Origin: Sulfurimonas sp.
GTDB lineage: Bacteria; Campylobacterota; Campylobacteria; Campylobacterales; Sulfurimonadaceae
DNA: 50,924 bases
Assembly (NCBI GenBank): GCA_016744115.1
Contig: JADGEZ010000013.1
Span: 1-50,924, forward strand
Direction of reading: 5' to 3'
Shown: positions 4,208-24,653 of the stretch, piece by piece
Layout: every line of letters starts with the position of its first letter
Numbering within the stretch: the stretch's first letter is position 1
Notes under the pieces: generated by a model
The model's database searches: none
What the model saw: the letters and a program-made list of their open reading frames with translations, nothing else
Told to the model about the DNA's origin: nothing
Translations under genes and position numbers: made by a program

Positions 4208-4391
4208 TCTAAATTGAGTGAATAAGAGCAAAGTTACTCTTGGATATTAGCCAGTAAAGAGATTGATTAAGTCTTATCTTTCGTAAAAATATTGTGGTAC
4301 CAATTTATTTTGATTTTAATAGTGTCGGAGTGATTTATTATATGTAAAGCTTTATAAAGATATAATTTCTGCTTAAGTATAAGGGAAATGT
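4208..4391. promoter_or_regulatory. Intergenic promoter region before the SapC/type I secretion operon (TATAAT 4361-4366)
   Basis: The 184-bp gap holds a weak AAGAG/CTCTT inverted repeat shortly after the recQ stop, without a T-run. A TATAAT box lies at 4361-4366, 25 bp before the TTG start of the next gene. AGGGAA at 4382-4387 serves as its ribosome binding site. No -35 is clear. Confidence 0.5.
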
Positions 4392-5750
4392 TTGGCACGA
4401 AAAGTAAGGGTTTTTATAGAAAATGTTTCTCAGCATGTTAAGCTAAAAAGTTTAGATGAGTTAATTCTCTTTAGAGATGACTTAGATTATCAGGCTTTTA
4501 CTTTATTTCTTTTAGAGTTGAGTGCTAGTCACTTAGTTAAAATCCATGCTTATATGCTACAACCGTGCTATTTTGAATTTTTGCTCACACCAAAAGATAC
4601 AAATAGTTTATCAAAATTCATGCAAATATTAGGAAGACTGTATGTTTTTTACTACAATAAAAAGTATAATCATGTTGGAACATTGTTTGATGGAAGATAT
4701 AAGACCTCTTTGGTAGAAGATAAAGTGTACCTTTATGATCTTATGCAGTATATAGAGCAAAAAGAACAAAAAATATCTAAATACAGTAGTCTAGGAAAAA
4801 ATATTTTAGGTAAAGAAAATTCTATCGTAACTTTTCATCCTATATATGAGAAAGCACTTTATGTGGAGCATTGTAAGACAAAGTTAGATGATGCAAGAGA
4901 TAACTTCATTTCACAATGTTTAGAAAAACAAGTTCTAACAGGAACAGTTGAATATACGCAAAAACTGGAAAAATTAATCGGTATGACACTCTCTTCAAAA
5001 AATAGAGGTCGCCCAAAAAAACAAACACAAGAAAAAAGGAAAAAAATGTATAAAAATTTAGTAATATTAGATAGAGAAGTTCACAAAAGTTTGAAAATTA
5101 CAGAATTAAAAGATTTAAACTTTGCAAAATCAAGTAGCTTTGTGCCAGTCAATTTAAGTGAATTAAATTCTGTAGGGATGGATTTTCCTATTGTATTTAC
5201 TGGTGGGGATAACGCATCACTTATTGCAATAGTATCCTTAGGTGGTGAAAGTTTAGCCATAAACAACGAGGGAAAATGGTTAAAGTCATATGTTCCTTCT
5301 TATCTTAGAAAATATCCATTTTCATTTGCTTCTACAAAAGATGAACCAAACAAAAAAGTGATTATGATTGATGAGGATTCCTCTTTATTCTCAAAATCAA
5401 AAGGAAAACAGCTTTTCAAAAAAGATGGTGAGCATTCTGAAATATTAGATAATGCTATAAACTATTTAACCGCTTACGAAGAACAATCAATGGTAGTTAG
5501 AAATTTCGCAAGATTAATTGCTGATAGTGGTATTCTTGAAGAAAGAGAAATATCTGTAGGTGAGGGTGATGAAAAAAAGGTATTAGTCAAAGGCTTTAAA
5601 GTGGTAGACAAAGAAAAGTTGCATGCTTTAGATGATGAAACCTTAGCCTTATGGGTAAAAAAAGGTGTTATAACCGCTATAGATGCTCATCTAAAATCAC
5701 TTGATAACATTCAAAAACTATTTGACTTAGCACATGAAAGACAAAACTAG
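4392..5750 (+). CDS. Degenerate Y1/REP-type transposase domain fused to a SapC domain
   Basis: A 452-residue two-part protein. Residues 1 to about 200 follow the REP-associated tyrosine transposase layout: FRDDLDYQAFTLFLLE, IHAYMLQPCYFEFLLTP, GRLYVFYYNKKYNHVGTLFDGRYKT and YLYDLMQYIE. The two histidines of the HUH motif, normally in a 'MpNHvHlL' context, are replaced (PCYFEFLL), so single-strand DNA cleavage is unlikely; a Tyr remains in MQYIE. A basic linker with an AT-hook-like RGRPKK (205-210) leads to residues 219-452, a complete SapC-family domain beginning MYKNLVILDREVHKSLKI. SapC is encoded with the S-layer exporter in Campylobacter fetus and its role is unclear. The start is TTG 4392 with AGGGAA upstream. 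It is the first gene of the operon, 8 bp before the ABC transporter. Confidence 0.8.
   Translation: MARKVRVFIENVSQHVKLKSLDELILFRDDLDYQAFTLFLLELSASHLVKIHAYMLQPCYFEFLLTPKDTNSLSKFMQILGRLYVFYYNKKYNHVGTLFDGRYKTSLVEDKVYLYDLMQYIEQKEQKISKYSSLGKNILGKENSIVTFHPIYEKALYVEHCKTKLDDARDNFISQCLEKQVLTGTVEYTQKLEKLIGMTLSSKNRGRPKKQTQEKRKKMYKNLVILDREVHKSLKITELKDLNFAKSSSFVPVNLSELNSVGMDFPIVFTGGDNASLIAIVSLGGESLAINNEGKWLKSYVPSYLRKYPFSFASTKDEPNKKVIMIDEDSSLFSKSKGKQLFKKDGEHSEILDNAINYLTAYEEQSMVVRNFARLIADSGILEEREISVGEGDEKKVLVKGFKVVDKEKLHALDDETLALWVKKGVITAIDAHLKSLDNIQKLFDLAHERQN
5036..5048 (+). promoter_or_regulatory. Possible internal ribosome binding site and ATG for a stand-alone SapC
   Basis: AAGGA (5036-5040) is followed five bases later by ATG (5046-5048) in the reading frame of the fusion protein. 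That ATG is residue 219, exactly where SapC homology begins. The site could yield a 234-residue free SapC alongside the fusion. It may also be a relic of the original sapC start from before the fusion. Confidence 0.4.
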
Positions 5751-5758
5751 GAAATTAA

Positions 5759-7540
5759 ATGCAAAAAACAGCAAATACAACAGATACAGCTAAATCAGAA
5801 TTAAAAGAAGCAATACTAAGTTCAAAAAAATCATTTCTAGCCGTTGGATTTTTCTCTCTTTTTGTAAACTTACTGATGCTTGTTCCACCTCTTTATATGT
5901 TACAACTTTATGATAGAGTTTTAACAAGTCGAAGTGAGGGAACACTTTATATGCTCACGGGCATCGTCGTTATTTTATTTATAACCATGGCATTACTTGA
6001 GATAATTCGCTCAAATATACTTGTGAAAATATCAAATAAATTTGACTCTTTACTCAATGAAAGAGTTTTTAACACCTTGTTTGATTTAGCAAACAAAAAG
6101 CCAGGAAAGGCGAGTTCTTTGCCTATGTCTGATTTAACACAGATAAAACAATACATGACAGGAAATGGGCTTTTTGCTTTTTTTGATGCTCCTTGGATTC
6201 CTATCTATATAGCAGTTTTATTTATGTTCCATCCATACTTTGGTTATTTTGCTATATTTGCGGCTATAGTTCTTGTGATATTTACTATACTTAACCAAAT
6301 GATGACAAAAGAAAAATTGGGAGAAGCGAACTCATTAAGCCGAGCATCCACTATGTATGTTGATGCAAATCTTAGAAATGCTGAAGTTGTTAATGCACTA
6401 GGAATGAAAAACAATATTAGAAAACTGTGGTCAGAAAAATATTATGGCTTTTTAAATGCTCAAAGTGAAGCTAGTTACAAAGCAGGAACATGGGCAAATA
6501 TCTCTAAAAGCTCAAGAATGCTTTTCCAATCCTTGATGCTAGGTCTAGGTGGATATTTAGCCATCCATGATGAAGTGAGTGCAGGTATGATGATTGCGGG
6601 TTCTATCATTATGGGTAGAGCCTTAGCTCCACTTGACCTGATTATTGGATCATGGAAGGGTTTTTCTTCAGCAAAAACATCCTATGAAAGGTTAGATTCT
6701 TTGTTAAAAGACTTTCCTACAGATAAAGAATATATGCAATTACCAGCACCTGAGGGTGAAATACTTCTTGAAAATGTTGTTGTGATTCCACCAGGTTCTA
6801 AAGTACCATCTATTAAAGGTGTTTCAATGCTTATAAACAAAGGTGATATTGTAGGGATTATTGGTCCAAGTGCTGCTGGTAAGTCTTCTTTGATAAGAAT
6901 TATCTTAGGTTTATGGCCTCTAGTCCAGGGAAAATCAAGATTAGATAAAGCCGATATATATCAATGGGACAAAGATCTTTTAGGACAACATATAGGCTAC
7001 TTACCACAGGATATAGAGCTTTTTGAGGGAACTGTAAGCCAAAACATAGCAAGATTTAATGAAGTAGATGCAACAAAAGTAGTTGAAGCTGCAAAAAAAT
7101 CTGGTATTCATGAAATGGTTTTAAGACTGCCTGATGGTTACGATACAAAAATAGGAGCAGGGGGAGCAACTCTCTCTGGTGGACAAAGACAACGAATAGG
7201 TTTTGCAAGAGCTGTTTATGATAGTCCTGTTTTAGTAGTCTTAGATGAACCAAATTCCAATCTTGATGAGGCTGGTGAAGCAGCTTTACTAAGAGCTATC
7301 AAAATGTTAAAAGAGATAGAAACAACTGTAATCCTTGTAACGCACAGACCAAGTTTGTTACAAGTCACTACTAAATTAGCGGTCATTAAAGATGGATTAC
7401 TTGAAGTATATGGCAATACAAATGAGATCCTAGCAAAGATGAATGAAGCAGCACAAGCAGCACAAAATGGACAGGTTCAAAAGCGAATCAGTTCTCAAAA
7501 AACTGCAGCAAAAATATCACTTAGTAAACCAGGGAGTTAA
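5759..7540 (+). CDS. Type I secretion system permease/ATPase (PrtD/SapD family)
   Basis: Inner-membrane ABC exporter half-molecule of 593 residues that, as a dimer, energises one-step secretion across both membranes. The N-terminal half carries about six membrane segments (first at 27-49). The ATPase half has Walker A GPSAAGKS (369-376), signature LSGGQ (472-476) and Walker B VLVVLDEP (DE at 496-497). The GPSAAGKS loop and the GRALAPLDLIIGSWKGF segment are typical of the PrtD group, which exports proteases, lipases and S-layer proteins. There is no N-terminal C39 peptidase domain, so a C-terminal-signal substrate is expected. ATG 5759 has AGGAA upstream. It lies between SapC and the adaptor gene; no substrate gene is in the window. 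Confidence 0.93.
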   Translation: MQKTANTTDTAKSELKEAILSSKKSFLAVGFFSLFVNLLMLVPPLYMLQLYDRVLTSRSEGTLYMLTGIVVILFITMALLEIIRSNILVKISNKFDSLLNERVFNTLFDLANKKPGKASSLPMSDLTQIKQYMTGNGLFAFFDAPWIPIYIAVLFMFHPYFGYFAIFAAIVLVIFTILNQMMTKEKLGEANSLSRASTMYVDANLRNAEVVNALGMKNNIRKLWSEKYYGFLNAQSEASYKAGTWANISKSSRMLFQSLMLGLGGYLAIHDEVSAGMMIAGSIIMGRALAPLDLIIGSWKGFSSAKTSYERLDSLLKDFPTDKEYMQLPAPEGEILLENVVVIPPGSKVPSIKGVSMLINKGDIVGIIGPSAAGKSSLIRIILGLWPLVQGKSRLDKADIYQWDKDLLGQHIGYLPQDIELFEGTVSQNIARFNEVDATKVVEAAKKSGIHEMVLRLPDGYDTKIGAGGATLSGGQRQRIGFARAVYDSPVLVVLDEPNSNLDEAGEAALLRAIKMLKEIETTVILVTHRPSLLQVTTKLAVIKDGLLEVYGNTNEILAKMNEAAQAAQNGQVQKRISSQKTAAKISLSKPGS

Positions 7541-7541
7541 G

Positions 7542-8832
7542 ATGAACACAGACAATCAAGCATTAAAAATGCCCTCACATGATGATTCTTTAGTAATAAC
7601 ACTCGGTTTGAGTTTACTCTTTGTAGTATTTGTACTCATTGGTGGCTGGATGGGATTTGCTCCATTGGCTTCATCCTCGGTTGCGGTAGGGGAAGTATCT
7701 GCTGGTTTAGATAAAAAAACTATACAGCATTTAGAAGGTGGTAAAATCACAGCTATTTATGTAAAAGATGGTGATAAGGTTACAAAAGGTCAAATCTTAC
7801 TTAAACTTCGCGACATTCAAATTAAGGCGCAATTAAATATTTTATCATCTCAGTATCAAGATGCTATAGCTCTTTTTGCAAGGTTAGAAGCTCAAAGAGA
7901 TGAAATCACTAACATAATATTTCCTGCTGAGTTAGTGGATGAAAATGCAAGAAAAGATCAAGTGGCTATATTTAAAACAACTCTTAAAACGGTTCATGAT
8001 GAGAAGATTATTTCTCAAAATAAAATTCATCAATTAACAAATCAAATAAGCGGTTTATATTCGCTACTTCAAAGTAAGGAAAATAGACTTCTATCCATAA
8101 CAGAAGAAAAACTAGAATGGGAAGATTTGTATGAACAAAGACTAGCCGATAAGCAAAAAATAAGAGAACTCCAAAGAGAAACCTTAAGTATAAACGGTGA
8201 TATTGCAAACCAAAAAACAGAGATGCTTAGATTAAACGAGCAAATTTCTGAAACACAAGTTCATCAGTTTTTACGAGAAAAAGAGTTTAAAAAAGATGTT
8301 TTAGAAAGGTATGTTTCCACTAAGTCAGTTATTTCTGATTTAAAATCTAAGATTATCGCTAACCAAGATATTATAGATAGAACAAGTATATATTCTCCTA
8401 TTGATGGGACTATAGTTGGTTTTACGATGCATACGGTTGGGGGTATAGTTTCCCCTAGTAAACCCATACTCGAAATCATACCAAATGGTTCAAAGTTATT
8501 AGTAGTAGCACAGGTTCTAACTACAGATATTGATAAGGTTCGAATCGGCTTAGTAGCAGATGTCATGTTCTCTGCTTTTAATCTTAAAACAGTACATGTT
8601 ATCAGAGGAGAAGTTGTCCATGTCTCAGCAGATATATTCACAGATCAAGCAAGTAATATGCCGTATTATGAAGCAAAGATTGAAGTCACACCAGAGGGTA
8701 TAGAAGTTTTGAGGGAAAACAATTTTGTCTTAGTCTCAGGTATGCCAGCACAAGTTATGATTAACTTAGGTGATAGAACAGCTCTTAGTTACCTTGTTAA
8801 GCCATTTACAGAGATGCTCACAAGGAGTTTAA

Positions 8833-8843
<11 letters not shown>
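7542..8843 (+). CDS. Type I secretion membrane fusion protein (HlyD/PrtE/SapE family)
   Basis: Periplasmic adaptor linking the ABC transporter to the outer-membrane channel. From ATG 7542 the protein has 433 residues: a short cytoplasmic N-terminus, one membrane anchor (about 14-40), a first biotinyl-lipoyl half (HLEGGKITAIYVKDGDKV), a long coiled-coil hairpin (about 90-270), the second lipoyl half (IYSPIDGTIVGF) and a C-terminal beta-barrel (VLTTDIDKVRIGLVADVMF). The reading frame is open back to 7443, but AGGGAG 5 bp before ATG 7542 and the absence of homology upstream favour 7542, one base after the ABC stop. Its end overlaps the TolC-like gene by 11 bp. Confidence 0.92.
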
Positions 8844-12057
<3,214 letters not shown>

Positions 12058-14530: not shown

Positions 14531-14962
14531 ATGCAACAAAAAGCAAAAAAAGCATTTTCACTGATAGAACTTATGATAGTAATTGTGATTTTAGGGTCAC
14601 TCGCAGCATTAGTGATGCCAAATCTAATAGGTAAAGGTGAAGAAGCAAAAAGAAAATTAGTCTGTGTACAGATGAAAAGTATTTATAATGGTGCTTTAGA
14701 TATGTTTAAAATCGACAACAGTGTTTATCCATCTACAGAAGAAGGGTTAGAAGCCTTAGTTAAAAATCCAGATCCAGAGATGTATTTAAACTACTCTAAT
14801 CGTGGTTATTTTAAAGATAAAAAAATGCCTAAAGATTCTTGGGGTAAACCTTTTATCTACATTAATGATGAGGGTACTATAAATCTCATCTCTTTTGCAG
14901 CTGATAAAAAAGAGGGTGGAACAAATGAATCCTTAGACATTAAAATGAGTGAGTGTAAATAG
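14531..14962 (+). CDS. gspG: Type II secretion system major pseudopilin GspG
   Basis: Main subunit of the periplasmic pseudopilus that acts as a piston for substrate export. The 143-residue prepilin begins MQQKAKKA followed by FSLIELMIVIVIL; processing is expected after Ala8 with the conserved Glu at mature position 5. The GspG-specific globular signature YPSTEEGLEALVKNP and the later KDSWGKPFIYI are present. A single N-terminal hydrophobic helix anchors it before assembly. It is first in the operon, which suits the most abundant component. No prepilin peptidase gene is in the window. Confidence 0.93.
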   Translation: MQQKAKKAFSLIELMIVIVILGSLAALVMPNLIGKGEEAKRKLVCVQMKSIYNGALDMFKIDNSVYPSTEEGLEALVKNPDPEMYLNYSNRGYFKDKKMPKDSWGKPFIYINDEGTINLISFAADKKEGGTNESLDIKMSECK

Positions 14963-14975
14963 TTAATAGTTAAGT

Positions 14976-15512
14976 ATGTATATGAAAAAAGCATTTTCAC
15001 TCATAGAACTTCTTATAGTGGTTCTCATCATCGGAGTTATATACTCTATGGCAATTGGTACGATTAGAGGTGCTTCAGATACTAAGGCAAAAAAAGTAAA
15101 CCTTAAAAATCTAAAATATTACCTGCAATCTATCAAGTATGAGCAGAGTGTGAAGATTTTATGCTTAGATAATTGTAAGAGTTGTAGTCTTCTTGTAGAT
15201 GAAAAAAAAGATAAAGAACTTGATGAAAGTTTTGATATTTTAGTTGATGATACAGTAGAGATATATAGCTATGAGTATTTAACAGGTATGCAAGAAAAAG
15301 AGAAAGAAATTTTTTTTAACAAAGAAGAAGTTGAAGAGGATGTGTGCTTTTCTTATACGATAGATAAAAAAGGGATAGGTGATCAGGTGTATATAAGGTT
15401 TAAAGAAAAGGTATATGATTATACTCTTGACTCAGGATTTGTGAGTGTATATAACTCTTTAGAAGAAGCACAAGAAGCACAAGAAATCTTACGAGAAGAG
15501 TTGTTTCAATGA
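14976..15512 (+). CDS. Type II secretion minor pseudopilin (GspH-like position)
   Basis: A 178-residue prepilin-like protein: MYMKKA then FSLIELLIVVLIIGVIYSMA, giving a class III cleavage site after Ala6 and Glu at mature position 5. The remainder is acidic and contains a Cys pair region (CLDNCKSC). The globular part does not closely match a named minor pseudopilin by eye; GspH is inferred from order (G, H, F). Translation could begin at ATG 14976 or 14982; the latter gives the usual MKKAFSLIE. It overlaps gspF by 4 bp. Confidence 0.75.
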   Translation: MYMKKAFSLIELLIVVLIIGVIYSMAIGTIRGASDTKAKKVNLKNLKYYLQSIKYEQSVKILCLDNCKSCSLLVDEKKDKELDESFDILVDDTVEIYSYEYLTGMQEKEKEIFFNKEEVEEDVCFSYTIDKKGIGDQVYIRFKEKVYDYTLDSGFVSVYNSLEEAQEAQEILREELFQ

Positions 15513-16723
15513 TTTTTAAATACAAAGGCATTGATGCTAAGGGTAGAAAAGTATCTGACAAGATAGAAGCCTTGACATTAAGTGATGCTAAGTCAAAACT
15601 AAAACTAAAAAAAATAATTTATCAAAAGATACAAGAAGAAAGCCCTTCCATTTTTGCGAGTTTAAGTCTCAGTAGAAAATACAAGATTCCAGCCAAAGAG
15701 CTTTCGTCTTTGTCTCGTGAGCTTTCTATGTATATCCGTTCAGGTATAACTATCGTCTCCGCCTTAAAAATAGTCCAAACACATTATGAAAAAAATCCAA
15801 AAATGAAACTTTTTTTAACAACTTTAAGCACGCATTTAAATGAGGGAAAAAATTTCTATACAGCATTAGAGATGCAATCTGTAGTTATCTTGCCAGAATT
15901 TTTTAAACAGTCCATTAGAGTAAGTGAAAGTGGAGGTATCTTAGATGAGGTACTTTTGGAGTTATCAAGATTTTTAAAAGAGCAAGATAGGATTAACAAG
16001 GAGATTAAAGGGGCTTTTGCTTACCCCTCTTTTATGATTATTATCTCTTTACTGATGATTTCATTTATGTTGGCTTTTGTAGTACCTCAAATCACAGGAA
16101 TTTTTGAGAGTATGGGTCAAGAACTTCCTGCTCCTACGATTTTTGTTATCGCAATGGGAGATTTTTTTAATGATAATTTTACAAAAATTTTAGCGGCTAT
16201 CTTTGTATTTGTTGCCTTGTTTTTACTACTTATGAAAAAAAGTAAGATATTTGCTTATACCGTACACTCCATCCTTTTAAAATTACCTTTATTTGGAGAG
16301 ATTATCCAAAAAAGTGAACTTGCTAGGTTTTCATACATCGCTTCACTTTTAACTGCATCGGGTGTACCCTTTGTACAGACGATAAATCTAAGTACCGACA
16401 TTTTAAATAACCTTGTACTCAAAGAGATTTTTCTTAAAGCTTCAAAAAAAGTGGTAGAGGGAAAACTTTTGTCTCATGCTTTAAATGAACATGTAAAAAA
16501 AATTGACTATGCTTTTATACAGTCTATTGCCTTAGGGGAAGAAACATCTCAGGTAGTAAATGTTTTAACAAATATGTCTGAACTTTATTTTGAAGAAAAT
16601 AGAGATAAAATCAGCATGTTACTCACTCTTCTTGAACCCGCTTTAATGCTTTTTGTAGGAGGGGTAATAGGCTTCATAGTAGCTGCGATGTTACTTCCGA
16701 TATTTTCAATGAGCATAGGCTAA
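15509..16723 (+). CDS. gspF: Type II secretion inner membrane platform protein GspF
   Basis: Polytopic platform protein that couples the GspE ATPase to pseudopilus assembly. The 404-residue sequence has the two T2SSF repeats: LSRELSMYIRSGITIVSALK near residues 70-90 and ELARFSYIASLLTASGVPFVQTI in the second half. Three membrane segments are visible (about 170-190, 217-240 and 375-400). The N-terminal MIFKYKGIDAKGRKVSDKIEA is standard. The ATG overlaps the preceding gene in an ATGA arrangement and the stop is one base from the next start, so the genes are tightly coupled. Confidence 0.94.
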   Translation: MIFKYKGIDAKGRKVSDKIEALTLSDAKSKLKLKKIIYQKIQEESPSIFASLSLSRKYKIPAKELSSLSRELSMYIRSGITIVSALKIVQTHYEKNPKMKLFLTTLSTHLNEGKNFYTALEMQSVVILPEFFKQSIRVSESGGILDEVLLELSRFLKEQDRINKEIKGAFAYPSFMIIISLLMISFMLAFVVPQITGIFESMGQELPAPTIFVIAMGDFFNDNFTKILAAIFVFVALFLLLMKKSKIFAYTVHSILLKLPLFGEIIQKSELARFSYIASLLTASGVPFVQTINLSTDILNNLVLKEIFLKASKKVVEGKLLSHALNEHVKKIDYAFIQSIALGEETSQVVNVLTNMSELYFEENRDKISMLLTLLEPALMLFVGGVIGFIVAAMLLPIFSMSIG

Positions 16724-16724
16724 A

Positions 16725-17657
16725 GTGAAGAAAAAAAATGCGATAGCCCTAATCATTACCTTGATGTTTATCATATCTATGTCTGTAGCGATTGGGATAG
16801 GACTCAAGCAGGTAAACAAAGCCTCAAAATCTATGAGTGATGAAAAGTTTATGTTTCAAACAAGTATACTTTTAGAGGATATTTTACATATTTTGAAGAG
16901 TTCTAAAGAATTAGATATGATTAAAACACTAAGTTCAGATGCTGAAAAAATTGAAGTTTTTGCTACATTTTTGCATATGCCTATTCCTCCTATACCCTTT
17001 GATAATTCTGATATGCTAGTTAGCATTGAATTTAATAGTGCTAGATCAAAATTTAATATTAATAGCTTAGAAAATAATGAATCAAATATTACACAACTAG
17101 AGCAATTAGAGCACTTTAAAAGATATATGACTTGGAAAAAAGTGGGGCAAGAATATACCGATATTTTGTTAGATGCTAAGGGTGGATTAAAAGAAGATTT
17201 TAACTATAGGAGTGATTTGTTTAGTAATAACTCTCATTTAATTAGAAAAAGTATAAGCTCATTAGCACATTTAAAGGAGATTAATAAGTTCTATCTAAAC
17301 TCTTCTCATAATGTTAGGATAAATGATATAGATGGAGAAAATTTGTTTGATTTTTCTAATGATGATGATTATAAAATTGATTTAAACCATGCAACAAAAG
17401 AAACATTTGAGTTTTTACTCGCTTGTGATGAGTTAAGAGCGGAGCAATTAGTTGCAGAGGCAGGTGAATACTCTAATGTAGGTGACATGTTATTAAGTCC
17501 TAAAGAAAAGGAAAATTTAGAGAAGTTTGAAACAAGTTATTATGAACCATTCATAGATGTCACAATAGAGTTTGAAGAAAATAATAATAAAGCTATAATA
17601 CGATTTCAATACGATATAGAAGAAAAAAAAGGTTCTAACTTTGTTTATGAAATTTAA
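16725..17657 (+). CDS. gspK: Type II secretion minor pseudopilin GspK-like
   Basis: A 310-residue protein with an N-terminal hydrophobic segment (NAIALIITLMFIISMSVAIGIG) that lacks the usual Glu at position 5, as is normal for GspK, the pseudopilus tip subunit. The large globular part contains FNINSLENN and the segment IDLNHATKETFEFLLACDEL, resembling the helix-hairpin-helix-like T2SSK repeat. The start is GTG 16725, directly after the gspF stop. Size, order and the HhH-like repeat make GspK the best call; the globular domain is divergent. Confidence 0.78.
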   Translation: MKKKNAIALIITLMFIISMSVAIGIGLKQVNKASKSMSDEKFMFQTSILLEDILHILKSSKELDMIKTLSSDAEKIEVFATFLHMPIPPIPFDNSDMLVSIEFNSARSKFNINSLENNESNITQLEQLEHFKRYMTWKKVGQEYTDILLDAKGGLKEDFNYRSDLFSNNSHLIRKSISSLAHLKEINKFYLNSSHNVRINDIDGENLFDFSNDDDYKIDLNHATKETFEFLLACDELRAEQLVAEAGEYSNVGDMLLSPKEKENLEKFETSYYEPFIDVTIEFEENNNKAIIRFQYDIEEKKGSNFVYEI

Positions 17658-18570
17658 AGATGATTTGAGAACAATATTTTTAGACGAATATTCTGAGGTT
17701 TTTTCCTTAGAGGAGAAAGTAAATATTGTCTTATCTCCATCGCTTTATTGGATTAAAAAACTAGACTTGCCCCTCAAGTATTTGTATGAGGTGAAAAAGT
17801 TAATTCCTTCCTTATTTGAAGATATTTTACCTGAGGGAAACTACAGTTATACCGCTTATAAAAGTGATGATAAATATTTTATATTTGCCTATGAAGATAA
17901 GATAATATTAGACTTACTTCATGAAAAAGGTATCTCCTTATCGCAGGTAAATAATATCCATTTAGCTCAAAGTGAATTTCAAAATATAGATGCAGCACTT
18001 AAAATAAATAAGACACAAAGTATTTGCATAAAAGATGAACTTCTTATCTTAGTGCCATGTTGTTGGATTAAAGAAACAAGGTATATTGATTTTGATAATG
18101 AAAAACTCTCAAAACACACAATAGCCTTAGCAAAGTTTAACCATATTCTTGATAACAAAAGTCTTTATACACTAGGGATAATATTTTCAATAATGATTTT
18201 ACTCGTATCAGTAGAATGGTTTATCTCCTCGCAAAAAGTAAAGCAAATAAGGCAGGTAAAAGAAGAACTTTTTTCAAAATACAAGTTAAGACCAACAGTA
18301 CTACAAAACAAAGTCTTACTAAAAAAATATACAAAGTTACATAAAAGACAAATAAAAATTAGACAATATTTATCTTCCATCCTAGCCATGAGACTCAAAA
18401 CAGGATATAGTCTAACACTTATAAGTATAAAAAACAAACTTTTAAGTATAAACTTTAATATAAAAAATCAAGCTGATAAAAATACAATTCTAAAACTTTT
18501 AAAATCTAAAGAGATACAATTTAAGTCCTCTTCCAAAGATAATAAGCTTTTTGTGGAGATACAACTGTGA
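17641..18570 (+). CDS. gspL: Type II secretion protein GspL-like
   Basis: A 309-residue bitopic protein: a cytoplasmic N-terminal domain of about 175 residues, one membrane helix near 176-196 (LGIIFSIMILLVSVEWFIS), and a periplasmic ferredoxin-like tail. This is the plan of GspL, which ties the GspE ATPase to the inner-membrane platform; the cytoplasmic domain is shorter than in gammaproteobacteria. Translation may start at TTG 17641 (AAAGG eight bases upstream) or ATG 17647. Recognition is by architecture and position rather than by strong motifs. Confidence 0.7.
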   Translation: MFMKFKDDLRTIFLDEYSEVFSLEEKVNIVLSPSLYWIKKLDLPLKYLYEVKKLIPSLFEDILPEGNYSYTAYKSDDKYFIFAYEDKIILDLLHEKGISLSQVNNIHLAQSEFQNIDAALKINKTQSICIKDELLILVPCCWIKETRYIDFDNEKLSKHTIALAKFNHILDNKSLYTLGIIFSIMILLVSVEWFISSQKVKQIRQVKEELFSKYKLRPTVLQNKVLLKKYTKLHKRQIKIRQYLSSILAMRLKTGYSLTLISIKNKLLSINFNIKNQADKNTILKLLKSKEIQFKSSSKDNKLFVEIQL

Positions 18571-18968
18571 ATAAAATAAATCCATTATATGTAGGTATCT
18601 TTCTTATAGTTGTATTTATTGTTGTAAGCCTTAGCTTGAAATCTTCAAAAGAGGAATTACAAGAAACAAAGCTACTCTTACAAGAGACAAGAGAATTAGC
18701 GATAGAAGTATCAGAGTATAAAAAAATCTATGCTAAAAAAAGTAAGAAGTCCTTAGAAAAGATAGTGAAATTAGGAATATTAAAATCGGCAAATTTAGAG
18801 ATTAAAAAAAGTAAAAAATCAATGAGTATATTTTCAAAAAGTATGGATAAAAATGCACTTAATTACCTTATGGGAAAATTATTAAATAGCGCTTACAATA
18901 TAGAATCATTAAGAGTAAAAAAATTAAGTAATGAAAAAGTTAGTTTATATGTGGAGATAAAATGGTAA
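18567..18968 (+). CDS. gspM: Type II secretion protein GspM-like
   Basis: A 133-residue protein with one N-terminal membrane helix (about 7-24), a Lys/Glu-rich coiled-coil stretch (25-75) and a small periplasmic domain ending in YVEIKW. The plan and the position after GspL match GspM, which pairs with GspL through ferredoxin-like domains. The GTG start at 18567 overlaps the gspL stop (GTGA) and is preceded by GGAGA. Sequence conservation in this family is very low, so the call is mainly contextual. Confidence 0.65.
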   Translation: MNKINPLYVGIFLIVVFIVVSLSLKSSKEELQETKLLLQETRELAIEVSEYKKIYAKKSKKSLEKIVKLGILKSANLEIKKSKKSMSIFSKSMDKNALNYLMGKLLNSAYNIESLRVKKLSNEKVSLYVEIKW

Positions 18969-19495
18969 AGAAATTTTTCAAATCAGTATTGTATTTTTTA
19001 TTTTTTATTGTATCTCTTATGTATCTTACACCAAAAGTAAATATATACTATTTATTAGAACAAAAATTAAAACCATTCGGCGTGATAGTCTCAAAAGAAG
19101 ACCTAGAAGATACAGGATACAATCTTAACATAGAAAATTTACATGTATCGTATAAAGAGATAAAGAGTTTGAAAATATCTAAGATGGAGTGTAATATTTT
19201 TGCTTTTTACAATAGCATAAATATTAAAGATATAGAGTTAGCCAAGGCTTTAAGCTCTTTTCTTCCAAGAAAAATAAAAGATGTGAAGATTAGCTATAGT
19301 ATTGTAAATCCATTGAATATTTTTGCAAGTGCTAAGGGAGAGTTTGGAGATTTAGAAGCTGAGTTTAACCTATCAGAGTTTAGGCTACACCTTAACTTAA
19401 AACCATCAAAACTGATGCTTCACTCTTACGAAAACACTTTAAATAACATGAAAAAAACTCAAAATGGAGACTATACTTATGATCAAAGTTTCTAA
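18962..19495 (+). CDS. Type II secretion protein GspN-like
   Basis: A 177-residue protein with an N-terminal signal or anchor helix (KSVLYFLFFIVSLMYLTP) and a beta-rich remainder built around repeated 'IKDVKISYSIVNPLNIFASAK'-like strands. Position between M and C and the beta-strand pattern suggest GspN, an optional inner-membrane or periplasmic component, but similarity is weak by eye. ATG 18962 has GGAGA upstream and overlaps the previous gene; the end overlaps gspC. Confidence 0.55.
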   Translation: MVKKFFKSVLYFLFFIVSLMYLTPKVNIYYLLEQKLKPFGVIVSKEDLEDTGYNLNIENLHVSYKEIKSLKISKMECNIFAFYNSINIKDIELAKALSSFLPRKIKDVKISYSIVNPLNIFASAKGEFGDLEAEFNLSEFRLHLNLKPSKLMLHSYENTLNNMKKTQNGDYTYDQSF

Positions 19496-20285
19496 GTCAG
19501 TACTTCTTCATCTGCTCATAAAACTTTTAATAATTTTTGTACTTGCGAAAATCATTTCACTTCTAAGCTTATGGTATCTACCAAGTGATGGAGTAGAGTT
19601 AAGTCAAAAAACAAGTAAGAAAGTTGAATATAGGCGAATTGATTTTAAAAATATGATAAAAGGCTCAGATACGCAAAATAATGTAGAGCAAAGTACTATT
19701 AGTTCTAGTAATGTAAGTATTACAAATATGTTTTTAAAGGGTTTATATGGTCTAGGAGATTCAGGTTATGCAATTTTGGCATTAAAAAATACTCCAAACA
19801 AGGCCTCTATTATAGCTGTTGGAGAGGAGTTTTCCTCATATAAATTAACTTTTATTAAAAATAATGGAGTTGTATTTACTAAAAATTTTAAAGAATATGT
19901 TTTATACTTTAAAGAGATGAAAGATTCTTCTCATGTAAAAAGAGTGCAAAAAAAATTCTTTGAAGAAGAAAGTACACAAATATCTAGGACGGATATAAAA
20001 TACTATTCTAAAAATCCCAAACAAATGTGGAAAGATATTAGCTTAACAGATTATAAGCAAAATAATAAACTCATAGGATTTAGGATTACAAGAATTAAAA
20101 AAGAGTCTAAGTTCGCTACATTGGGACTTAAGGCTCAAGATATAATTATTAGTGTAAATAATGTTGCATTAACATCTTATAAAGAAGTGTTTGATATCTA
20201 CAACAAACTAGCTAAACTTCAAACTATTCAAATAATAGTACTAAGAAACAAAGAAGAAAAGGAATTTATATATGAAATCAATTAA
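19479..20285 (+). CDS. gspC: Type II secretion protein GspC-like, with PDZ domain
   Basis: Links the inner-membrane platform to the secretin. From ATG 19479 the protein has 268 residues: a membrane anchor (about 8-32), a homology region recognisable from the GLYGLGDSGYAILALKNTP and KASIIAVGEEF segments, and a C-terminal PDZ domain (LIGFRITRIKKESKFATLGL, QDIIISVNNVALTS). An upstream ATG at 19464 is possible, but GGAGA (19466-19470) eight bases before 19479 favours the shorter form. It overlaps both neighbours. The HR-PDZ arrangement is diagnostic of GspC. Confidence 0.85.
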   Translation: MIKVSKSVLLHLLIKLLIIFVLAKIISLLSLWYLPSDGVELSQKTSKKVEYRRIDFKNMIKGSDTQNNVEQSTISSSNVSITNMFLKGLYGLGDSGYAILALKNTPNKASIIAVGEEFSSYKLTFIKNNGVVFTKNFKEYVLYFKEMKDSSHVKRVQKKFFEEESTQISRTDIKYYSKNPKQMWKDISLTDYKQNNKLIGFRITRIKKESKFATLGLKAQDIIISVNNVALTSYKEVFDIYNKLAKLQTIQIIVLRNKEEKEFIYEIN

Positions 20286-22161
20286 AACGCTCTTCATAGC
20301 ATTCATATTAGTAGTGAGTGTCTCAGCAAGAGATAAGGTAAATGTCAATTTTGCAGATTTAGAGATAAAAGATTTTATCAAATTGATAGCTAAAATAACT
20401 CATAAAAATATTTTAATAAACCATAAAGTAAACGGCACAATAAATTTTATAAGCAATGCTCCTATATATGATGATGAACTCATAGGGATACTTGTATCAG
20501 TTCTTAACTCTAAGGGTTTTACTCTTATAGAAGATGGTTCTTTATATAAAATAGTTCGTGCTACAGAATCTGCAAAACATAATCCAAAAGTTATCTCACT
20601 TGGAAAAAAGTTATATGGTTCATTGATGGTGACACAAGCCATAGTTGTTAAGGGTGAAAATGTTGATGTAGTAGCGGCAAAGATCCGTTACCTTATCTCA
20701 AAAACAGCCAAACTTATGACTATGAAAGAATCAAATATCATCTTAATAACAGACTATCCTAAAAATATAGAAACGATTAAAAGAGTGATAAAAGATATAG
20801 ATACATACAATAAAGCAATTGTAAAAATCGTATATGTAAAAAATACAGAAGCAAAAAAACTACAAACTCGTTTAGTAGATGTGGCAAAATCTATTTTTAA
20901 TGAAAAAGTGGCTTCTCAAAGAGTTAAAATTATTCTTGATGATAATATCAATGGAATTATTATAGTAGGAGATGTAAAAAATGTACAAAGAATTGAAAAA
21001 CTAATAAAACAGCTTGATGTAGAGTCAAATATGAATAGCATTGTTAAAATTTTTCCTTTAAAAAACTCTGATGCTAAATCAGTTCTTGCAACGCTCACGG
21101 CTATTGCGTCTAAACAAGTATATAAGGATCCATCTTTAAAACCAAATATTTCCTCAAGTGAAGAGATAAACTCAATCATTGTAGTGGGTGATCCCGCTAT
21201 CGTAAAGGGATTAAAGGTTATTATTGATGAGCTTGATAAGGAAAAATATCAGGTATATGTACAGGCAAAAATCATAGAGATAAATCAAAATGACAGTAAA
21301 GACTTAGGTTTAAAGTATGGATTTGCGGGAGGAGATGTCTCTTCAACAGGATTATATTCAATGAGTGCTAACTTTGGTTCATCAAGTTTGACAACAATAG
21401 CTTCAGAGGCTGTAAAAAAAGCATTACTAGGGATTGGAGAAGGGACAAAGTCAGCTTTATCATTAGGAGCAACTCTTGATTTTTTAGAAGAAAACGGTGT
21501 TTCAAAAGCAGTTTCAAATCCTTCTATACTGTGTGTAAATAACAAAGAATCCTCAATCTATGTAGGGAAGACAATCTCAATATCAACAGGGAGTGTAACT
21601 TCAAGTACAACAGCAGTCCCCGGGGTAACAAATAGTTTCAAGCGTGAGGATGTTGGTTTGACCTTAAAAATAAAACCTCGTGTCTCTTCTAATGATAAGG
21701 TTACCTTAGATGTAGAAGTTGTATTAGAGAGTGTTCTTGATGATGGTTCTAAAAATGCAACAGGGCAACCTGTTACATCCAAGCAAGAGGTTAAGACACA
21801 GGCTATCTTACGCCATGGTGAGAGTATTATCATCGGTGGACTTGTCAAAGCATATAAGAAAAAGGTACACAGTCAATTGCCTATATTAGGAGATATTCCT
21901 ATACTTGGGGATTTACTCTTTTCTTCAAATAGCACAAAAGTAGAAGAGGATAATTTAGTGGTTATTTTAACTCCTTATGTTATTAGTAAAAGTGAGGAAC
22001 TCTCACAATTGCAAAAAGATTTAGGTATTTTATCTAGTGTCCAAGATACTTATAATTTAGATATTTTTAAGAGCATGGAAGAAAAAAGATTAGAAAAATC
22101 GCAAGAAATTCAAACACAAGATGACGATGATTTATTTTTTTTAGATGAAGAAGAGTATTGA
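20272..22161 (+). CDS. gspD: Type II secretion system secretin GspD
   Basis: Forms the outer-membrane gate of the type II secretion system. The 629-residue protein starts with a signal peptide (to about residue 20), then an N0 domain (VNFADLEIKDFIKLIAKIT), N1-N3 ring domains (repeats at about 100-320 such as VIKDIDTYNKAIVKIVYVKN and IIDELDKEKYQVYVQAKIIE) and the secretin beta-barrel (about 325-580) with VGLTLKIKPRV and LPILGDIPILGDLLFSS. The C-terminal tail is acidic. No lipobox is present. AAAGGAA precedes ATG 20272. Confidence 0.95.
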   Translation: MKSIKTLFIAFILVVSVSARDKVNVNFADLEIKDFIKLIAKITHKNILINHKVNGTINFISNAPIYDDELIGILVSVLNSKGFTLIEDGSLYKIVRATESAKHNPKVISLGKKLYGSLMVTQAIVVKGENVDVVAAKIRYLISKTAKLMTMKESNIILITDYPKNIETIKRVIKDIDTYNKAIVKIVYVKNTEAKKLQTRLVDVAKSIFNEKVASQRVKIILDDNINGIIIVGDVKNVQRIEKLIKQLDVESNMNSIVKIFPLKNSDAKSVLATLTAIASKQVYKDPSLKPNISSSEEINSIIVVGDPAIVKGLKVIIDELDKEKYQVYVQAKIIEINQNDSKDLGLKYGFAGGDVSSTGLYSMSANFGSSSLTTIASEAVKKALLGIGEGTKSALSLGATLDFLEENGVSKAVSNPSILCVNNKESSIYVGKTISISTGSVTSSTTAVPGVTNSFKREDVGLTLKIKPRVSSNDKVTLDVEVVLESVLDDGSKNATGQPVTSKQEVKTQAILRHGESIIIGGLVKAYKKKVHSQLPILGDIPILGDLLFSSNSTKVEEDNLVVILTPYVISKSEELSQLQKDLGILSSVQDTYNLDIFKSMEEKRLEKSQEIQTQDDDDLFFLDEEEY

Positions 22162-23678
22162 TGTTTGATTTAGAAGCACTGCATGATTTAAAGTTAGAAG
22201 TTTATGAACCAGAAGATGTGGATGTAGAACTTAGTGTTAAAAATTATCTTTTATTTAGTGAATTTGAAAATGAGAAATGTGCCTTTGTTTGTGAAAATTA
22301 TCTACTTGAAGCAACGAACTTTTACACAAAATTAGATACTAACTACAAACTGCATCTCCTAGATGAAGATTCTTATGATAGATTATATAACCGTTTTTTA
22401 GAACTTCGTACTGATAGAACCATGCAAAGTATGCAAGAGGATAATAAACAAGAGGATGAAGACGAAAATATCTCTCTTACAGATTTTCTGCGAACATCAT
22501 CAGATATTTTAACAAGTGAAGAATCTGCTCCTATCATCAAGTTTGTAAATGCTCTTTTTTACCAAGCGATTAAAAAAAGAGCCTCAGATATACATATAGA
22601 AGTTCAAGAAAAAAGAGGAGAAGTTCGTTTTCGTGTAGATGGGATGTTACTCAAAAATGCAGACTTAGATAAAAAAGTAGTAAACTTAATCGTGAGCCGT
22701 ATAAAAGTTATATCAAACCTAGATATTTCAGAAAAACGAATCCCCCAAGATGGAAGAACACAGATTAAAATATCTGGAGAAACCTTAGATGTGCGTGTTT
22801 CTATACTTCCAACTTTTCATGGAGAAAGAGTTGTTATGAGACTCTTGATGCAAAGTTCTCAAATTCCCAAAATAAATGAACTTGGATTTGATGAGGTACT
22901 AGTGAGTGATATGAGAAAATTATTACGCTCCTCTCATGGGATCATACTAGTAACTGGACCAACGGGAAGTGGTAAAACAACATCCTTGCATTCATTTTTA
23001 AGAGAAGTAGAAGAACCTGAAAAAAATCTCATAACAGTAGAAGACCCAGTAGAATACAAGTCGGATAATATTGCTCAAATTCAGGTAAATGAAAAAGTAG
23101 GTTTAACTTTTGCTGCGGCTTTGAGATCTATCTTGCGTCAAGATCCCGATGTTATCATGATAGGGGAGATTAGAGATGAAGAGACAGCTGCTATCTCTGT
23201 TCGTGCTGCATTAACAGGGCATTTAGTTTTTTCTACCTTACATACAAATTCAGCAGCTGCTACTATCTCTCGTTTGTCAGATATGGGAATTGAACCCTTT
23301 TTAATCTCATCCTCTTTACTTGGAATTTTAGCACAAAGACTTGTGCGTGTCTTGTGTAGTGATTGTAAAGTAGAAGATATAATCGCAGAAGATTTTGCAA
23401 AAGATTATTTGCTTAACAGCAATGCAATCATATATAAGGCTTGTGGCTGTAAATCATGTAACTATAGTGGTTATGCTGGTCGTAGGTCTATAGGGGAATT
23501 GTTGCTCATGAACGACAAGGTAAAAGACTTACTTAAAACTACAACGGATGAACATACTATCAAAACATCTTTAGAAAAAGATGGTTTAAAAACAATATCA
23601 ATGCAGTTAAGAGATATGCTTATAAAAGGGGAAACCTCTTTAGATGAAGCCATTAGAATTGGCTTAGGGCATGCTTAA
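22161..23678 (+). CDS. gspE: Type II secretion ATPase GspE
   Basis: Cytoplasmic hexameric ATPase that powers pseudopilus assembly, 505 residues from ATG 22161 (the ATG overlaps the gspD stop as TGATG; a TTG three bases earlier is also in frame). Features: an N-terminal GspL-binding region, Walker A GPTGSGKTTSL, Asp box VEDPVEY, Walker B RQDPDVIMIGEIRDEETA and His box TGHLVFSTLHTNSAA. The zinc-binding Cys pairs CSDC and CGCKSC are in the C-terminal third. All catalytic motifs are intact. The 3' end overlaps the next pseudopilin gene by 8 bp. Confidence 0.95.
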   Translation: MFDLEALHDLKLEVYEPEDVDVELSVKNYLLFSEFENEKCAFVCENYLLEATNFYTKLDTNYKLHLLDEDSYDRLYNRFLELRTDRTMQSMQEDNKQEDEDENISLTDFLRTSSDILTSEESAPIIKFVNALFYQAIKKRASDIHIEVQEKRGEVRFRVDGMLLKNADLDKKVVNLIVSRIKVISNLDISEKRIPQDGRTQIKISGETLDVRVSILPTFHGERVVMRLLMQSSQIPKINELGFDEVLVSDMRKLLRSSHGIILVTGPTGSGKTTSLHSFLREVEEPEKNLITVEDPVEYKSDNIAQIQVNEKVGLTFAAALRSILRQDPDVIMIGEIRDEETAAISVRAALTGHLVFSTLHTNSAAATISRLSDMGIEPFLISSSLLGILAQRLVRVLCSDCKVEDIIAEDFAKDYLLNSNAIIYKACGCKSCNYSGYAGRRSIGELLLMNDKVKDLLKTTTDEHTIKTSLEKDGLKTISMQLRDMLIKGETSLDEAIRIGLGHA

Positions 23679-24123
23679 AGGGAAAAAAGCTTTTACCCTC
23701 ATAGAGGTAATAGTATCAGTTCTGATAATCTCTATCGTAATCATGGCTCTTTTACAAATGTTTGCGAACAATACACATATCTTTTTATCACTTAATAATA
23801 AAACGAAAATAAGTCAATATTCTTCATTTTTCATCTCGAGTAGAGATATTGGTTTTGAAGATGACATGAGCGATATGTATAAGTTAGTAGAGGATTTTAC
23901 CTTAGAGGATGATTTAAGAAGAGAACTTAAAAATATGAAAATGGGTATTATGTATCAAGAAGTTAAGAGAATTGATATGAGTGAATTTGAAGATGATGAA
24001 GATGAAAATACTACTAATGCTTTAAACAAAGAATCAAATTCAAATATAATTTTTGAAATAGGAAAAACTATTTTAACAACTCAAAATACTTCAGTAAGCT
24101 TTTTGAGGTTGAGACTAGAATGA
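23671..24123 (+). CDS. Type II secretion minor pseudopilin (GspI-like)
   Basis: A 150-residue prepilin: MLKGKKA then FTLIEVIVSVLIISIVIMALLQMF, with a class III peptidase site and Glu at mature position 5. The 'FTLIEVIVSVLIISI' helix is typical of GspI. The globular part is acidic (EFEDDEDEN). It starts inside gspE and overlaps the next pseudopilin by ATGA. GspI is inferred from order and the helix; the globular domain is not diagnostic. Confidence 0.72.
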   Translation: MLKGKKAFTLIEVIVSVLIISIVIMALLQMFANNTHIFLSLNNKTKISQYSSFFISSRDIGFEDDMSDMYKLVEDFTLEDDLRRELKNMKMGIMYQEVKRIDMSEFEDDEDENTTNALNKESNSNIIFEIGKTILTTQNTSVSFLRLRLE

Positions 24124-24653
24124 AAAAAAATGCTTTTTCTCTCATAGAGATGTTGGTGTCAATAAGTATTTTAGCAATTATGATGTTGTATCTATATAAA
24201 AGCTACGCTTCGCTCAACATGTCAAATGATATTTATAAAACAAAGGTCAAGAAATTATTAGATATAAATAGCATTACAAAAACATTACTTTTAGACTTTT
24301 CTTTAGCCTTACCAGAGTCTATTAAAATAATAAAGCAAGAAGAAAATGAAGTTCTTATACGGATGCAAACATTAAATTCTAAGCATAGAAATTTTAGCCC
24401 TTACTTGATGTATATGGTAAAAAATGATAAACTATACAGATTAGAATCTTTAAAAGATTTTTCCAGTGCTTCATTTTCTTTTAATGATGTGTTAAATATA
24501 GATGAAGTGGCAGAAGTACAAAGATTCAGAGTTTATAAATATATAAAAATAGTTAAAAGAATATACACAGAGTTTTATTTAATAGATATTAAATTTAAAG
24601 AAGAAAAACAAATATTATTTAAAGTCAAAGCACTTAATGAATATAAAAAATAA
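24120..24653 (+). CDS. Type II secretion minor pseudopilin (GspJ-like)
   Basis: A 177-residue prepilin with MKKNA then [24 protein letters not shown], Glu at mature position 5, and a basic globular domain. GspJ forms the pseudopilus tip with GspI and GspK, and this gene follows the GspI-like gene directly, the usual I-J order. It is the last secretion gene; purH begins 17 bp later. Assignment to J rests on order and size. Confidence 0.72.

Follow-up and report, generated by a model that had tools for sequence, protein, structure and literature searches.

RAYTs (REP-associated tyrosine transposases) have long been termed domesticated transposases, and we know of no clear host job that has been assigned to them. 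The fold binds single-stranded DNA (PMC8266576), and a typical RAYT gene is flanked by two inverted REPs, with cognate REPs numerous in the genome (PMC2817692, PMC8266576, PMC6006769). In Campylobacter fetus, the sap locus comprises sapCDEF together with copies of sapA or sapB, and in sapB strains the region next to it contains a GDP-mannose dehydratase (PMC4943207). The stretch that separates sapC from a sap gene carries a promoter (PMC3887049). In the literature surveyed we found no description of a function for SapC or of a RAYT acting as a transcription regulator, and in the open literature none of a SapC-transposase fusion. Nor did we find a published description of an eroded RAYT N-terminal part on the SapC of sap-like loci.

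The locus analysed here can be set beside both systems. Its features in common with RAYTs and TnpA-REP are the fold, the position of the tyrosine, the C-terminal tail of one RAYT subtype and an imperfect palindrome beside the gene. Unlike them, its protein is fused to SapC and has no metal-binding HUH histidines, and there is a single upstream hairpin, not two flanking ones, which is not repeated genome-wide. In common with C. fetus sapCDEF are a SapC gene followed by genes for an ABC transporter, an HlyD-family protein and an outer membrane efflux protein (OEP), and a nearby GDP-mannose dehydratase, and S-layer or DUF4214 proteins would likewise be the likely cargo; unlike in C. fetus, SapC here bears a full, conserved RAYT domain, and a hairpin accompanies the predicted promoter.

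A RAYT-SapC fusion gene at the head of a type I secretion operon

The window, by which we mean the whole 50,924-nucleotide stretch of Sulfurimonas sp. DNA that was analysed, carries on its forward strand an open reading frame of 452 codons (4392-5750) that has no internal stop. The frame starts with TTG (4392..4394), served by the Shine-Dalgarno sequence AAGGGA (4381..4386), and encodes a RAYT domain of Y1/HUH fold from which the HUH motif has been lost (residues 1-218; 4392..5045), followed by a SapC domain with its own ATG at Met219 (5046..5750). The SapC match (PF07277, residues 226-443) has an E-value of 4.7e-58 and scores 196.8 bits against a curated cut-off of 28.9, so the full SapC domain proposed in the earlier note is present. 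Only 8 bp separate the fusion from the next gene (5750 to 5759), and the claim of an in-frame fusion heading an operon of exporter genes holds as well. These are a SapD-like type I secretion ABC transporter (5759..7540), a SapE-like HlyD-family membrane fusion protein (7443..8843, its true start perhaps 3′ of 7443) and a SapF-like outer membrane efflux protein (8833..10140), all on the same strand and followed there by a GDP-mannose 4,6-dehydratase (10151..11194), a gene that often adjoins this exporter. The sapCDEF-type order of SapC, ABC, HlyD and OEP is found in the window and in more than 20 other loci.

Further along the window, positions 14531-24653 hold a gene cluster with type II secretion components (GspG-like at 14531, a secretin at 20272, GspE-like at 22158). 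On a different contig of the same genome (G000:C74:7329-7514, L154), a 1443-aa open frame encodes a DUF4214 protein that is likely an S-layer or type I secretion cargo.

The N-terminal part is a complete RAYT without its HUH motif

By sequence profile and structural model, the N-terminal part of the window protein is a Y1_Tnp (HUH-superfamily) fold. The Y1_Tnp match (PF01797, residues 34-123, E 1.4e-4) reaches 22.4 bits, slightly below the curated 23.0, and relatives of the same gene clear that cut-off easily at 40-58 bits. An AF2 model of residues 1-218 (mean pLDDT 86) finds as its best PDB match 4er8 (Foldseek E 9e-7), the structure of E. coli TnpA-REP with a bound REP hairpin. The model superposes on 4er8 over 150 residues at 2.6 Å with a VIA Z of 15.6, far above the 8.5-10.9 obtained with other HUH enzymes, and a family profile of the N-terminal part matches 4er8 alone among PDB sequences (E 3e-4). 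The Y1 homology is thus significant both in fold and in the family profile, in agreement with the resemblance to REP-associated tyrosine transposases that had been noticed in residues 1 to about 200.

Profile alignment to 4er8 places Y60 and E62 on its two histidines and Y120 on the tyrosine of the YI..NP motif. The former HUH motif (4569..4577) now reads Y60-F61-E62; together with the preceding residue, C59-Y60-F61-E62 stands where 4er8 has E-H-M-H. The counterpart of the catalytic tyrosine of TnpA-REP, Tyr120 (4749..4751), is kept. The replacement of the histidines that had been read from the window is correct for this protein, but it does not extend to the whole fusion family, in which the motif is intact at four loci (L056, L057, L061, L065; in L061 as MPNHVHIL, with YIESNPVR). 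Among the columns that are invariant across RAYTs, whether fused or free, are Y84, Y87, N89, K90, K91, Y92, G96 and R102. The RGRPKK stretch (residues 205-210; 5004..5021) had been taken for an AT-hook-like joiner. It is instead the way in which RAYTs of this subtype normally end at the C terminus, which rules out an AT-hook gained at fusion. RAYTs in the same branch finish with RGRP or something similar, so that residues 1-218 represent an entire RAYT.

A single fusion within Campylobacterota

Among 299 genomes of the order, seven carry the full fusion, the window's genome included, and in G290 it is split across two contigs. A scan of named genomes gave fusion loci L034-L068 in Sulfurimonas, Sulfurovum, Sulfurospirillum diekertiae (a complete genome), Arcobacter, Poseidonibacter and relatives; more than 30 Campylobacterota genomes have the fusion. 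Independent assemblies, one of them complete, rule out an assembly artefact or a chance fusion. Genes for ABC, HlyD and OEP follow the fusion wherever the contig extends, often with GDP-mannose dehydratase behind them. L065 is the exception; its fusion is divergent from a separate sapC, and it is the latter that heads the operon. A palindrome lies between these two divergent genes (L065 9102-11422).

In a tree of the N-terminal part, all fused Y1 domains fall into a single clade (SH-aLRT 99), which is nested among proteobacterial RAYTs, and the free RAYTs nearest to it carry a C-terminal RGRP or similar. This topology gives one fusion event, in an ancestor within Campylobacterota, that placed a RAYT onto the front of sapC. 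Members with an intact HUH motif (L065 and the Sulfurospirillum branch) branch earliest and also retain the tyrosine and the NPVR loop. The HUH-less members group together (28 sequences, support 99), except for L060, which lost the motif separately; much of the HUH-less clade has also lost the NPVRAG loop. Glutamate occupies the third HUH position in 26/28 of that clade, which looks like a new state and not like free decay. Between the closest pairs, dN/dS is 0.11-0.30 in the N-terminal part and 0.03-0.24 in SapC, and by this measure the N-terminal part is under purifying selection. The single origin, conserved synteny, purifying selection, and loss of HUH alongside retention of other core residues together give good support to the earlier note's view that a transposase fold was domesticated on an S-layer export factor.

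The fused SapC domains cluster in a SapC tree, which was built by a quick method and has several long branches; in the same tree the separate sapC of L065 falls inside the cluster, and the eroded forms described below, with the standalone SapC of the Campylobacter family, fall near it. This arrangement fits a single fusion whose N-terminal part was later lost in places, and the position of the separate L065 sapC suggests that it descended by such a loss.

Two Campylobacter-family genomes (L142 and L147) have a SapC with approximately 145-170 extra N-terminal residues. Profile comparison shows these residues to be homologues of the RAYT part (E 1e-6 and 9e-9, each a single comparison), and they give no Y1 match in Pfam. 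Both genes keep the TTG start and the internal Shine-Dalgarno sequence with its ATG, and a DUF4214 protein is encoded near both. A degenerate palindrome of 23.4 bits stands directly 5′ of L142, and none was detected at L147 although the fused gene is kept there. The L147 locus presumably resembles the C. fetus sap locus, an assumption that we base on its adjoining S-layer gene.

An internal start and two predicted products

In-frame internal initiation allows a long and a short product to be made from one gene. The fusion resembles such genes in having two starts in one frame and a conserved internal Shine-Dalgarno sequence, and is unlike the usual cases in that its long form adds a transposase-derived domain. 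The internal sequence AAGGA (5036..5040), 5′ of Met219, pairs with the anti-Shine-Dalgarno at -5 kcal/mol or better in 33/34 loci, compared with 6% of 217 other in-frame ATGs in the same genes. It is kept in all three frames while the residues encoded there vary (KRKK, KGKK, KDKK, QGNK). Where arginine is encoded at the site, the codon is AGG in 17/19 cases against 6% elsewhere; the synonymous-codon test is weak for each sequence and strong only when sequences, which are non-independent, are combined. The fusion itself starts with TTG at 31 and GTG at 2 of 33 loci, whereas most of the free RAYTs listed start with ATG. Because the internal Shine-Dalgarno sequence and ATG are conserved at the nucleotide level, both the fusion and SapC alone are very likely made, with the fusion from the weak TTG as the scarcer of the two products. 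The earlier note had contained neither this start (5046) nor the relatives with intact HUH.

Two loci depart from the pattern. In the fusion copy of L065, which has a separate sapC alongside, the internal ATG has become ATA and the Shine-Dalgarno sequence is absent. In L054, an in-frame TAG at codon 109 interrupts the RAYT part and leaves the internal start and SapC intact; as L054 is a MAG, this stop may be a sequence error. The model of the SapC domain (window 5046-5750) is confident (pLDDT 94), but against the PDB it gave no Foldseek E-value below 0.87 and no VIA Z >=2, so no mechanism can be derived from the SapC fold.

A single palindrome beside the predicted promoter

Upstream of the fusion lies a REP-like imperfect palindrome (4286..4343, forward strand; 5′ arm about 4288-4304, 3′ arm about 4318-4335). 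In fusion loci with upstream sequence, the palindrome sits 57-97 nt before the fusion start; in L058 it was missed by a pattern search, and the covariance model gives a weak match at the same place. Across 32 sequences, 79% of cells are paired, and covariation is 0.265 against 0.174 in shuffled alignments (0/500 as high, a test that relatedness can inflate) and at most 0.112 in slid controls. The palindrome is near-symmetric and scores on both strands. In the window's genome the model finds one strong site, the one at 4286-4343 (54.7 bits, E 6e-9). Five of the six other fusion genomes likewise have one strong locus each, and G044 has a second palindrome, 5′ of where the start of the fusion gene occurs a second time. 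Matches at E<=1e-3 occur in 8/299 genomes, exactly the fusion-bearing ones, and each lies upstream of the fusion. L067, left out of the covariance model, was matched at E 2e-7. Standalone sapC loci among L012-L033 gave no palindrome by the model, the sole match there being an eroded fusion (L016). Marginal matches in G065, G078 and G232 fall in regions without SapC, RAYT or such exporter genes. REP-like genomic spread is ruled out by the single strong site that is general for these genomes. A terminator of the upstream gene is also ruled out, since the neighbours in L034, L042, L043 and L065 are divergent.

A predicted -10 hexamer, TATAAT (4361..4366, forward strand), follows the palindrome. 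Most Sulfurimonas loci have a -10-like hexamer that starts 29-31 nt past the palindrome arm; the hexamer score alone is not above that of shuffled sequence, and it is the constant position that stands out. The palindrome would accordingly be placed just upstream of a predicted operon promoter. The suggestion that the protein could regulate the operon or bind repeated hairpins is strengthened by this conserved hairpin beside the predicted promoter, but the hairpin is single-copy and not repeated.

Possible autoregulation and its alternatives

There are several possible explanations for the pairing of fusion and palindrome. The one that we prefer, and to which we give about an even chance, is that the domesticated RAYT domain binds the palindrome hairpin and thereby autoregulates the S-layer export operon. 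In this account, the single fusion put a RAYT ahead of sapC, with which a type I S-layer export operon begins, and the hairpin that the RAYT targets was retained at a single site immediately 5′ of the operon promoter. Of the two proteins, the scarce fusion initiated at the weak TTG would bind the palindrome through the RAYT fold, probably as an extruded hairpin, and set transcription of its own operon, while free SapC from the internal ATG would perform the export work. The SapC half of the fusion could report export state or sense demand, because the fusion and free SapC would have a partner in common, either the exporter or an S-layer substrate. No cutting would be needed, and that activity would have been lost in most lineages. 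Against autoregulation count that the promoter is a predicted one, that the palindrome might serve a different regulator as its operator, and that sap-like locus L147 has the fused gene with no detectable palindrome. An extended form is a tentative possibility, namely that RAYT and hairpin were captured together as a secretion feedback switch in which the SapC half senses export, and that the S-layer SapC of Campylobacter, possibly including that of C. fetus, is an eroded descendant.

A rather unlikely alternative is that an unrelated regulator uses the palindrome as a double-stranded operator, the RAYT part then having some other role, for example as a protein-interaction surface in export. 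The near-symmetry of the palindrome would suit such an operator, and the binding of RAYT to palindrome is itself putative; yet strong matches in the 299 genomes occur only alongside the fusion, the palindrome is degenerate or undetectable where the RAYT part erodes, and covariation at otherwise free positions is more in keeping with a folded strand than with a site for a dimer.

Control could also be post-transcriptional, with a transcript that starts 5′ of the palindrome and an RNA hairpin in its leader, bound by the RAYT part, governing initiation of translation at the TTG; the internal site would meanwhile sustain SapC. We regard this as unlikely to a marked degree. The distance of the hairpin from the start, the weak TTG with an independent internal start, and covariation that suits RNA as well as single-stranded DNA all accord with it, but most Sulfurimonas loci have the constantly placed -10-like hexamer 3′ of the palindrome, which would put the latter outside the mRNA, and single-stranded DNA is a known ligand of the RAYT fold (PMC8266576).

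An insertion relic, open merely by being in frame with sapC, with internally initiated SapC as the protein that does the work, is improbable. Such a relic need not stay open, as SapC has its own start, whereas the frame, TTG and Shine-Dalgarno sequence are kept across deep divergence, together with low dN/dS, the glutamate in the former HUH and the hairpin; the strong internal start, the stop in L054 and the erosion in two Campylobacter-family genomes are what speak for it. That the RAYT is still selfish or mobile and exploits sapC for expression hardly merits belief, since despite the intact HUH, tyrosine and NPVR loop of Sulfurospirillum and L065, HUH is missing in the window and most relatives, the location is fixed, and each genome has a single hairpin with no dispersed copies.

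This single-origin RAYT offers an enzyme series from intact through disarmed to eroded, a defined operon and, in each genome, one target hairpin, which makes its function directly testable. The fusion further provides a way into the study of SapC and hints that S-layer export may be feedback-controlled.

Two minor observations concern the surroundings. The window's genome contains two stop-broken RAYT fragments of a different subtype (G000:C59:1533-1832 and G000:C19:58055-58252; L002, L003). In many Sulfurimonas loci, a protein of 160-170 aa belonging to no Pfam family adjoins the fusion in either orientation (for example L007 870-1376); the copy in the window's genome is elsewhere (G000:C43:342-812, L155), 5′ of a gene that by look alone is like that for the large subunit of exonuclease VII.
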